DNA from: Bacteriovoracaceae bacterium
GTDB lineage: Bacteria; Bdellovibrionota; UBA2428
Length of the DNA stretch: 33,500 bases
Direction: 5' to 3'
Assembly (NCBI GenBank): GCA_947467125.1
Contig: CANIGN010000004.1
Span: 1 to 33,500 of the forward strand
Position numbers and translations under genes: made by a program. A model generated the notes under the pieces. That model ran no database searches. It saw nothing but the letters and a program-made list of their open reading frames with translations, and was not told the origin of the DNA. Below are positions 13,821 to 30,256 of this stretch, one piece after another. The stretch's first letter is position 1; each line of letters starts with the position of its first letter.

Positions 13821-14048
13821 TTACATAGCGGGTGCTGAGCTAGCTTCTTTTTTAGCTTTTTTCTTAGCTTTCTTTTCAGCTTTCTTAGCTTTCTTTGCGG
13901 CTTTTTTAGCTTTCTTTTCTGCTTTTGCAGGAGCTGCAGCAGGTACTGCTTCTGTAGTTGGTACTGCTTCTGGAGCAGGGGCAGCGTCTTGTGCAAAAGC
14001 AGCTCCAGTTGTGAGGGCAGCGATCATTAAATATGTAAATTTTTTCAT
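13821..14048 (-). CDS. Small secreted Ala/Pro- then Lys/Ala-rich protein
   Basis: 75 aa; signal peptide MKKFTYLMIAALTTGAAFA then QDAAPAPEAVPTTEAVPAAAPAKAEKKAKKAAKKAKKAEKKAKKKAKKEASSAPAM; AAGGAAGA-type RBS upstream (tttcttcctttcaag on + strand); terminator downstream. Confidence 0.75.
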   Translation of the reverse strand: MKKFTYLMIAALTTGAAFAQDAAPAPEAVPTTEAVPAAAPAKAEKKAKKAAKKAKKAEKKAKKKAKKEASSAPAM

Positions 14049-26302: not shown

Positions 26303-26409
26303 AAATATAGAGGGTGGTGATGATCTAGAGCAAAGCTTTAGGTTCCACCAAACAAAGATCTTCGTATCTTTTTTGCGAGAGAGTGCTCCAGAAAAGGGAG
26401 GGGGATTTT

Positions 26410-26922
26410 GTGAAAAAATCACTTCAGACAACTAAGAAGGCAAATAGCCGTTGGCAAACAGTTGCCAAAATAGAAACTTCATTGAACCAACAAAAAAACG
26501 AGTCTGTCGCTCGTAGTAGTGCTTCTGAGCTGTCACTTGCTCAACTTAAGCAACTCAAATTGAAATTGACTGAGATTAGGGAAGAGCTGACTCGTTCAGT
26601 GGAACTCAAAACTCAATCAGTGATCAATCATGCGAATGTGCTTGAGAATACACTGCAAGGAGATGATGCAGAGGTTGCAGAGAAACAGCGACTTAGTAAT
26701 GCAAACTTGCAAGAGCTTGATTTTTTGAAGTCTCGCTTGCAACTCATTGATCGCGCTCTTTTGAAAATGAAAGAGGGTTGCTATGGGATTTGCGAAGAGA
26801 CAGAAGAGCCTATCGGCTTTGAGCGTCTGCAAGTGGTTCCTTGGGCAAGGTTTTCGATCAAGGTTCAAGAGAAGCGTGAAATACGCAGTCGAGACTTTGG
26901 TCGGATTCAAAGAGCAGAATAA
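26410..26922 (+). CDS. DksA/TraR-family protein lacking most zinc-finger cysteines
   Basis: KMKEGCYGICEETEEPIGFERLQVVPWARFSIKVQEKRE aligns to the YGxCxxCGEPI..ERL.A.PWAR.C..CQ motif; acidic coiled-coil tip GDDAEVAEK; RBS gggaggggg precedes GTG at 26410. Confidence 0.85.
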   Translation: MKKSLQTTKKANSRWQTVAKIETSLNQQKNESVARSSASELSLAQLKQLKLKLTEIREELTRSVELKTQSVINHANVLENTLQGDDAEVAEKQRLSNANLQELDFLKSRLQLIDRALLKMKEGCYGICEETEEPIGFERLQVVPWARFSIKVQEKREIRSRDFGRIQRAE

Positions 26923-26924
26923 GT

Positions 26925-27953
26925 TTATTCTAAACTTTTTCGAAAGGCGGATTCAAAACGATCTGCCTCGCGAATAATTCTTGCTCTCAATCGAGGGTAG
27001 AGGCTCCATGATTTTGAGAGAGCCGCTTTCTGTATCGCTTCGTTATGTTCTTTATGTAAGGTGTCTGAAAGAGGTCTGATCCATCTTTGACATCTTTTTT
27101 GACTTTCTAATGCCCATTGATTCTCTAAAAGAGTGTTTTCTTGAGTGAGAAAGCTCACCCATGTGCTGGATTGTTTTTGAAGGCAAGTGAGTTTTCCAAC
27201 GAGAGGTATGAGAGATTCTTTTGCAACAAGAGCTTTACAGTTGATGGGAGATGCAAATATTTCGTAAACCTCACCTGTTTTGAGTTTAAATTTCCCGCGT
27301 TTTAATCCTTCACTTGAGAGCGGAGTGACCTCTGTCTTTTTATCGAGGCCAAGACTGAGTTTTAGGTAGGAGGCCATTTTTTCTTCATTTTCATTAAGGG
27401 GCTTAGCAGGTATTGCGGGAGATTTTTCATCAACACTCGAAGCTTTTTTTTCCTGAAGGCTTTCAGCTAGGTCGATATTGGTAAAAGTTCCTCTGCTTAC
27501 AGGGGGAACGGGGAAGCCCCACTCAGACCAAAATGATTCAAGACATCGGGGACTGTTGACTCCATCGTTTGAGTGAAAACGAGCAAGGAGTTCCATCTCA
27601 AGATCAATCGACAATAAAAGAAGAGCGTGATTGGCGTCTTTTTTATTGGTAAACGAAAAATCTAAAAATGTTTTTCCACTCAGAACGGGTTGCGCAGGGA
27701 AAGTGTTGAGTGAGGGGAATTCTTCGAGCAATTTTTTTTCAAAATCTTCAAATCGAAATGTGTTTGAAAAAAAAGCCCAGTTATTTTCGAGCGCTTGTTT
27801 TTGGGTTTCTTTGTCGAGGGATTCAAAGCGACTTGTTAAATCTCTAAATTCAAGAACAGGTTCTTTGGGTTTGCTTTGGCAGCTTATGAGAAAAAATAAG
27901 ATAATAAGGGTAGAGAGTCGGTACGCTTGGAGGGGTAATTTTTTTTGAATCAT
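26925..27953 (-). CDS. Hypothetical lipoprotein
   Basis: Signal and lipobox STLIILFFLISC-QSKPKEP; no recognised domain. Confidence 0.7.
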   Translation of the reverse strand: MIQKKLPLQAYRLSTLIILFFLISCQSKPKEPVLEFRDLTSRFESLDKETQKQALENNWAFFSNTFRFEDFEKKLLEEFPSLNTFPAQPVLSGKTFLDFSFTNKKDANHALLLLSIDLEMELLARFHSNDGVNSPRCLESFWSEWGFPVPPVSRGTFTNIDLAESLQEKKASSVDEKSPAIPAKPLNENEEKMASYLKLSLGLDKKTEVTPLSSEGLKRGKFKLKTGEVYEIFASPINCKALVAKESLIPLVGKLTCLQKQSSTWVSFLTQENTLLENQWALESQKRCQRWIRPLSDTLHKEHNEAIQKAALSKSWSLYPRLRARIIREADRFESAFRKSLE

Positions 27954-28086
27954 AAAAAAGCTTCGTTGCCATAAGCTAGTGCTTCTTAAAAGAGTAAAAA
28001 ATACTTAAATGAGAGATTTTAATGCGTTCCGCGCCGTTCCAAACTCTTGCCATGAGCCACTTAAACAGGATTATACTGTGCCCACT

Positions 28087-28284
28087 ATGGCAGAAGTATT
28101 AGTCGTTGCGAGCAAAGTACGTTCATACATCAAAGATAAAGGTGAGTGTAATACCGCATCTGAAACAATCGATGCTCTTTCTCAAGCTGTTGAGAAGGTT
28201 CTTGATAAGGCTATTGAAGCCGCTAAGTCTCAAGGCCGCAAAACAGTTATGGCTCGAGACATTGTTGTTCCTTACGGTCAATAA
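28087..28284 (+). CDS. Bacterial histone-fold protein (Bdellovibrio HBb/Bd0055-like)
   Basis: 65 aa MAEVLVVASKVRSYIKDKGECNTASETIDALSQAVEKVLDKAIEAAKSQGRKTVMARDIVVPYGQ; whole protein is one histone fold with the RKTVMARDI loop/strand motif. ORF can extend to 28009, but homology begins at 28087. Confidence 0.92.
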   Translation: MAEVLVVASKVRSYIKDKGECNTASETIDALSQAVEKVLDKAIEAAKSQGRKTVMARDIVVPYGQ

Positions 28285-28299
28285 CTCTCAATTTAAGAA

Positions 28300-28965
28300 T
28301 TGAAGAAATTCAGGCTTAAATATTGGGAAAAGCTTTTTCCTCTACTGTTTGCGCTTGTCTATTTGCCTCCTAAAAAAGATTTAGAGGATTGGCAGAATAT
28401 ACCTGAGGGAATTGTTTTAGGTGAGGATTCTTTAAAAGAGAATCCTCCTTTGGGTAATTCACGTGTTGATCGTTTGCGTTTAGATCCATATAAGCGTTCC
28501 CATTTTATTTTTAATAACAAAGACATGGTTTCCTATGTCGAATCGAAAAAGCCCGAATGGGATATTTCTCTTTCGCCCTCGGAAAAGTCTTTTTTTTGGC
28601 CGAGTGGTGCATGGTCTGCAGTGAGTTTAAAGGCTCAAGAGCTAAGTCACTTTTATATTCGTGAACACAGAAATGGTTTAGAGGCTAAGTTTCGAGCCTA
28701 TCAACTTGCTCCTGATTTTGAGGTTGTGGATTTTGAGTTGTGCGATTCTAAACACGCCTATCTTTTACAAAAAGAAATTCTTTCAAAATATCCCTCCTAT
28801 CGTTTAACTCTTGTCACAATGGTTTCTTCTCAAGAGTTGAGACGAGATAAAGTGTGGAGTTTTGTATTGGCTGCAGATCAAGATATTCTTAAGCTCAATC
28901 CTGAAAGTTGTGATCGAGTGGTGTTTGAGGCTTGGCCCAAATCGTTGAGAATTGATTTTAAATAG
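28300..28965 (+). CDS. Hypothetical protein with N-terminal hydrophobic segment
   Basis: ORF 221 aa with TTG start, KLFPLLFALVYLPP segment; co-directional with the histone and dihydroorotase-like genes; no recognised family. Confidence 0.55.
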   Translation: MKKFRLKYWEKLFPLLFALVYLPPKKDLEDWQNIPEGIVLGEDSLKENPPLGNSRVDRLRLDPYKRSHFIFNNKDMVSYVESKKPEWDISLSPSEKSFFWPSGAWSAVSLKAQELSHFYIREHRNGLEAKFRAYQLAPDFEVVDFELCDSKHAYLLQKEILSKYPSYRLTLVTMVSSQELRRDKVWSFVLAADQDILKLNPESCDRVVFEAWPKSLRIDFK

Positions 28966-28978
28966 GAAGGTCTCTTTT

Positions 28979-30256
28979 ATGTTGGAAATATTTTCAGACA
29001 TTAAGTTTTGGAACGAACAAACGCCGTATGACCTTTGGGTTGAAGACGGAATTCTTATCAAAAAACTTCCTGTGAAAGCAGAAAAACACCCTGAAGGTGC
29101 AAAGGTTTATACGTGTTCAGGGCAAAGTGTTTTGGCTTCTGGAGTGGATGTGCAAGTACACTTGCGGACTCCCGGTCAGGGTGAAAAGGAAACTCCTGAG
29201 ACTGGATTAACAGCAGCTCTTTATGGTGGGTATGGCGCGGTTCTTTCGATGCCCAATACAAAACCGACTTTAGATCATCCCGAAATTTTAGAAGATGCTT
29301 ATGCTCAAACATCAGCTGCTTCTCAAAAAACAGGCATCGCTGCCTATTATTCTTCCTGCGTGAGCAAGGGCCTTGAAGGCAAGGAGTTAGTTGATTTTTT
29401 TGCAATGGCCGATGCGGGAGCAAGAGCTTTTACGGATGATGGCAAAGGAATTGAGCCAGATGAATTTATGCGCGCAGCTTTTCGTGCAAGTGCAGAAACA
29501 GACTTGCCGGTTTTGCAGCATGCGGAGTGGTCGGGGCATGGAGGAGTTCTTGCGGATTGTGTTTTGTCTCGTCGTTTGGGATTGAAAGCGTATGATCGCA
29601 GACAAGAGTGGAGTTTTGTAGAGAGAGATTTGAAGTTACTCAGAGAAGTTTCCGGCGCTCGCTATCATGTTTTGCATGTCACCACTCGAGAGAGTTTGAA
29701 CTTTATTCGTCGAGCAAAAGACAGGGGATTGAATGTCACTGCAGAAGTGAGTCCTCATCATTTGTTTTTTTGTGCAGATGATATCGATTCCAAAAATACT
29801 TCTTTTAAAATGAATCCACCTTTGCATCAGGATGAAGATCGTGAAGCTCTTCGTTCTGCTTTGAATGAAGGCTTGCTGGATTTTGTAGCAACAGATCACG
29901 CTCCACATGAGGAAAAAGCAAAAGGAAGTGAGTTTGCAAAAGCTGCTTTTGGAACAGTTGGCTTAGAATCTTCTTTGCGTGTTTTGCTTACGGGAATCGA
30001 AGAGGGTTGGTTAAAGGCTGAGCGCTTAGAAGAAATTTTTTCGACACGTCCTGCAGCTTTTCTAGGTTTGGATAGTGAGTTTGGAATTCTTCGAGTGGGG
30101 CGCGCTTTTAGAGCGGTCTTTATTGATTCTTCCGAAGAATCAAAGTTTGAAGTGAAGGATCTTAAAAGTCTCTCTAAAAACAGTTGCTTTTTAGGTGTGA
30201 ATTTACGTGGAAAAATTTGTGCTCATTATTCACGTTCAGGCTATCACGGTTTCTAA
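28979..30256 (+). CDS. pyrC: Dihydroorotase-like amidohydrolase (class I type)
   Basis: VDVQVHLRTPGQGEKETPETGLTAALYGGYGAVLSMPNTKPT, FTDDGKG, QHAEWSGHGG, HVLHVTTRESL, TAEVSPHHLFF, ATDHAPH; AGGAAGG RBS before ATG 28979; ORF extends to 28952. Confidence 0.88.
   Translation: MLEIFSDIKFWNEQTPYDLWVEDGILIKKLPVKAEKHPEGAKVYTCSGQSVLASGVDVQVHLRTPGQGEKETPETGLTAALYGGYGAVLSMPNTKPTLDHPEILEDAYAQTSAASQKTGIAAYYSSCVSKGLEGKELVDFFAMADAGARAFTDDGKGIEPDEFMRAAFRASAETDLPVLQHAEWSGHGGVLADCVLSRRLGLKAYDRRQEWSFVERDLKLLREVSGARYHVLHVTTRESLNFIRRAKDRGLNVTAEVSPHHLFFCADDIDSKNTSFKMNPPLHQDEDREALRSALNEGLLDFVATDHAPHEEKAKGSEFAKAAFGTVGLESSLRVLLTGIEEGWLKAERLEEIFSTRPAAFLGLDSEFGILRVGRAFRAVFIDSSEESKFEVKDLKSLSKNSCFLGVNLRGKICAHYSRSGYHGF

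Follow-up and report, generated by a model that had tools for sequence, protein, structure and literature searches.

The closest described system, the crystallised histone HBb (Bd0055) of Bdellovibrio bacteriovorus, is a nucleoid-localised, abundant and DNA-bending protein whose gene could not be deleted (PMC10627809, PMC11317129). It forms a homodimer that bends DNA, contacting the backbone at minor grooves in a sequence-independent manner (PMC11317129), and the end-on sheath model put forward for it (PMC10627809) was later contested by bending data. This histone has already been reported as persistent in the Bdellovibrionota, where it was found in 67% of genomes (PMC10627809). The alpha3-truncated histones, whose fold HBb adopts, are defined by an alpha3 of 3-4 residues and a shortened alpha2 (PMC11390915); the same fold is seen in HLp of Leptospira perolatii, a face-to-face (FtF) histone whose tetramerisation requires R49, N53 and R55 (PMC12701072).

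The window analyzed here, the full 33,500-nucleotide stretch of DNA, spans contig 4 in full, within a fragmented assembly (1.17 Mb, 66% complete) from a poorly sampled relative of the predator B. bacteriovorus. An open reading frame located exactly at 28087-28284 on the forward strand encodes a 65-aa protein, MAEVLVVASKVRSYIKDKGECNTASETIDALSQAVEKVLDKAIEAAKSQGRKTVMARDIVVPYGQ, followed by a stop codon. On alignment grounds, the ATG at 28087 is the right start for this protein, since dozens of relatives share its initiating Met and align gap-free with residues 1-16. An in-frame upstream ATG at 28009, which would yield a 91-aa product, was rejected because the homologues share the later start, at 28087, and because no Shine-Dalgarno sequence precedes either ATG. 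Searches of the assembly identified the histone as a single copy in the recovered genome and did not detect a second one, although other histones of this genome may be missing from a 66%-complete assembly; two genes of the HU/IHF family are present in the same genome. An Rfam search of the window returned no match.

Elsewhere in the window, the gene at 819-2096 on the reverse strand encodes an RF-1 domain with a GGQ motif, adding a third release-factor-like protein to the two stronger RF-1-family genes that other contigs carry. Its scores fall well short of the RF1, RF2 and RF-H cut-offs, and an internal N-terminal stretch, MNLLKPMLFVMGFGLYLNAVNA, resembles a signal peptide. At 13821-14048 on the reverse strand, a 75-aa protein combines a signal-peptide-like start with a Lys/Ala-rich tail, AKKAKKAEKKAKKKAKK, and has no informative family match.

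Sequence and fold comparisons demonstrate that the 65-aa protein is a histone of the HBb type. It scores 22.9 bits against Pfam PF00808, above the curated cut-off of 21.4, and in a phmmer search of solved structures its best matches are the HBb/Bd0055 chains 8fvx and 8cmp, aligned over residues 1-62 with E-values of about 3e-20, with the next match appearing only at 9e-7. An AlphaFold monomer model built with 44 sequences is confident (pLDDT 89.4); the model being of the monomer only, dimerisation is taken from homology to HBb. Foldseek likewise places HBb chains at the top (TM 0.77-0.86), HTkC and HLp second, and archaeal and eukaryotic histones much lower; HTkC (9f2c) and HLp (9qt0) are also the next matches in sequence, at a distance. 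These searches bear out an earlier note on this DNA, which had read the protein as one complete histone fold closely similar to Bd0055/HBb. That note had also assigned RKTVMARDIV to alpha3, which the model corrects: RKTV falls in loop 2, and alpha3 is reduced to a single turn at residues 56-58. With helix 1 at residues 2-19 and helix 2 at residues 25-48, the modelled protein has both the very short alpha3 and the shortened alpha2 of the alpha3-truncated class.

To compare the protein residue by residue with HBb, we aligned 85 distinct relatives and tabulated them against a published list of HBb contacts (PMC11317129); in this table and in the tree described below, the B. bacteriovorus locus L073 supplied the two final letters of the HBb sequence. 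Among the 10 HBb residues making the most simulated DNA contacts in that list, seven are identical here (S9, K10, K16, N22, K52, T53 and R57), one is conservatively replaced (K12R) and two are changed (T8A and S24A, the latter accompanied by A25S). T23, R51 and D58 are also retained, so that the RKT...D motif (R51-K52-T53, D58) is complete, and in the dimer core V11, L31 and I59 are identical and I35V and L38V conservative. Several of the replaced residues are almost universal among the relatives: Thr at position 8 (79/85), Lys at positions 12 (all 85) and 13 (82/85, Ser here), Ser at position 24 (82/85), Cys at position 39 (81/85, Leu here) and Asp at position 49 (80/85, Gln here). The Asp at position 49 of HBb braces the RD clamp. 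With the contacts of T8 and S24 gone and K13 and D49 replaced, DNA affinity or bend angle may differ from those of HBb.

The earlier note had called the protein a useful variant, and real differences do exist in the substitutions at positions 8, 12, 13, 24, 39 and 49 and in the missing Shine-Dalgarno sequence, but the two features it named are not the more informative ones. The Cys in GECNT, at position 21, replaces the Met of HBb, yet Cys is the commonest residue there (48 of the 85 relatives, with Met in 32) and was discarded as a special feature. The C-terminal tail is indeed altered, ending in VVPYGQ where HBb has VIDHL and nearly all relatives have IDHL/I or a close form, but the absence of IDHL/I is common to its family, in which each tail is different: those of the same-family loci L005 (NSEDDS) and L006 (ASPAHGG) lack it as well, and that of L019 is cut by the contig edge. 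Of these loci, L019 shares both A8 and A24 with the present protein, L005 shares A8, and L006 shares A24.

By analogy with HBb, the protein very probably works as a nucleoid-associated bacterial dimer histone, and homology argues strongly for its role as a chromatin protein. Two 65-aa chains would pair via antiparallel alpha2 helices, and at minor grooves the dimer would touch the DNA backbone with the N-terminus of alpha1 (S9, K10, R12 and K16), with loop 1 (N22 and T23), and with loop 2 and alpha3 contributed by the partner chain (K52, T53 and R57, with the R51-D58 RD clamp). Binding would be without sequence specificity and would bend the DNA, aiding chromosome compaction alongside proteins of the HU/IHF type. 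For the present protein, the analysis established the gene, its fold and family, the retention of contact residues and of chromosomal context, and its single copy in the recovered genome; dimerisation, DNA binding, bending, abundance and importance would carry over from HBb.

Translation start signals set this gene apart. In a set of 85 distinct histone genes whose upstream DNA was long enough, the present one included, GGAG or GAGG occurs in the 24 nt upstream of 80 and GGGG upstream of four of the remaining five, leaving the present gene alone with none of these motifs. It is instead preceded by a candidate -10 box, TATACT (28072-28077, forward strand), located 9 nt before the ATG with no Shine-Dalgarno sequence in between, and by a weak candidate -35 box, TTGCCA (28047-28052, forward strand), separated from TATACT by a 19-nt spacer that is longer than optimal. 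An automatic promoter scan paired TTGCCA with GATTAT rather than TATACT, and it found promoter-like sites no more numerous than in shuffled sequences, so the promoter is argued here from position statistics only. In 20 stretches of this genome (the window and G000 L115-L133), -10-like TAnnnT boxes lie 6-9 nt before ATGs more often than in the background (31/184 versus 7.6%, p = 2.5e-5), and 30 of the 31 belong to genes lacking a Shine-Dalgarno sequence; these numbers are rough, the first ATG of each long ORF having been used as its start. Boxes were likewise found at 21 of 124 starts in same-family genomes (L135-L149 and L155-L157), all without a Shine-Dalgarno sequence, and enrichment was also seen in mixed Bdellovibrionota loci but not detected in G047, a small sample of 45 genes. 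The enrichment of -10-like boxes 6-9 nt before ATGs devoid of Shine-Dalgarno sequences suggests that leaderless mRNAs are common in the lineage. Given the TATACT box 9 nt upstream, the missing Shine-Dalgarno sequence and the enrichment of such boxes in the genome, it is plausible from the sequence that the histone mRNA is leaderless or nearly so, with the 9-nt spacing at the edge of the range and a poor -35 match. The 16S gene, and hence the anti-Shine-Dalgarno sequence, was sought in the assembly and not found.

Matches to the histone are carried by 125 of the 144 sampled genomes of the phylum, not all of which are HBb orthologues, since some matches sit in longer ORFs of about 150-200 aa, which we interpreted as histones of other types, Bd3044-like or otherwise. 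A second, longer histone is suggested in G001 and G003. With few exceptions, the named relatives in the species collection belong to the Bdellovibrionota. A Bdellovibrio-type histone at L080:1378-1566 lies on a contig labelled as a Streptomyces griseus MAG, and that label is probably wrong because this histone groups with the Bdellovibrionota. An HBb-like histone with 59% identity, on a long branch, was found at L112:4001-4183 in a Chlamydiae MAG, the Chlamydiota being a published host group.

The chromosomal neighbourhood of the gene is conserved within its family. In all three same-family genomes, one side of the histone is occupied by a DksA/TraR-type zinc-finger protein (here at 26383-26922, forward strand), two ABC exporters and GreA. 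On the other side lies a pyrC-type dihydroorotase (28952-30256, forward strand), also found in G001 and G002, with ribosomal protein S4 (rpsD) next in G001. In G002 the contig runs out further along, and in G003 it stops within the histone. The TTG listed as the start of the dihydroorotase is mechanically the first start codon, and the true start is probably a few codons further in. Outside the family, genes of this dksA/pyrC/rpsD neighbourhood hardly ever occur close to the histone (flanks of 1.5-4 kb compared). Fifteen nt after the histone stop, a 221-aa ORF without a family match (28300-28965, forward strand) is a possible co-transcribed gene; its place in G002 is taken by a 256-aa ORF too diverged to show homology. 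The other gene flanking the histone, at 26925-27953 on the reverse strand, also lacks a family match, and with ORFs at the same places in G002 but no clear homology, the two flanking genes are either fast-evolving or unrelated to those ORFs.

A histone tree of 64 columns, in which few deep forks are resolved and from which only the same-family clade was used, groups the histones of the family in one clade with support of 100/96. Together with the neighbourhood shared with three same-family genomes, this establishes the histone as resident and inherited in the lineage, and its retention in the same gene surroundings in four genera of the family supports vertical inheritance. Patchily distributed bacterial histones can be contaminants (Hocher et al., PMC10627809) and the assembly is fragmented, but the window is a whole contig with neighbours syntenic in three same-family genomes, and this synteny and the single clade make contamination or recent transfer very unlikely indeed, to the point of being nearly negligible.

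That the protein is instead an FtF-type tetrameric alpha3 histone, wrapping some 60 bp as in Leptospira HLp and not bending DNA as a dimer, is highly improbable. HTkC and HLp do provide the next-best fold and sequence matches, and without D49 loop 2 resembles that of HBb less, but HBb scores much better in both sequence and fold. Moreover, the Arg and Asn that precede the RKT loop and mediate FtF dimer-dimer contact, R49 and N53 of HLp, fall on A45 and Q49 here when positions are counted from the RD clamp, so that only the RD-clamp Arg (R51 here) of the R49/N53/R55 network is present and an FtF tetramer is not expected. A second alternative holds that changed alpha1/loop 1 contacts and a new C-terminus have specialised the histone of this family for another job, such as weaker or regulated binding or contact with a partner protein. 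The substitutions T8A, K13S, S24A, D49Q and C39L and the loss of the near-universal IDHL/I end, several of them common to same-family sequences, speak for it. We consider it improbable, as searches of the recovered genome turned up no histone but this one and it retains most of the contacts, making a side role unlikely, and the differing tails within the family suggest that constraint has relaxed, not that a new function is being conserved. It is also unlikely that the family's major histone has drifted into a distinct DNA-binding variant through loss of T8, K13, S24 and D49 and new tails, coupled with leaderless translation in the present genome; if so, chromatin density and expression control would differ from those of B. 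bacteriovorus.

Sequence, fold, residue-level and phylogenetic evidence therefore agree in confirming the protein as an HBb/Bd0055-type bacterial dimer histone of the alpha3-truncated class, a moderately divergent but ordinary member of a known family with nothing fundamentally new, which leaves the existing picture of bacterial histones unchanged. As a natural variant with changes on known DNA contacts, it could be used to test which contacts set bending, and its unusual start context also gives it some value. Compared with HBb (PDB 8FVX, 8FW7, 8CMP, 9EZZ, 9F0E; PMC10627809, PMC11317129), it is in the same length class, with about 63% identity over 62 residues, and shares the truncated-alpha3 fold, the S9-K10 and N22-T23 pairs, the RKT loop, R57 and the RD clamp. 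The same-family histones (L005, L006 and L019) share its clade, its neighbourhood, Q49, the absence of Cys39 and a polar uncharged residue at position 13, but differ from it in having a strong Shine-Dalgarno sequence, K12 and tails of their own. The FtF histones HLp and HTkC of Thermococcus (PMC12701072; PDB 9QT0, 9F2C) have the alpha3-truncated fold, RKT loop and RD clamp in common with it at 38% identity in structural alignment, and the archaeal nucleosomal histones HMfA and HMfB, which share the histone fold and the RKT...D motif but have a longer alpha2 and a full alpha3, match it weakly.
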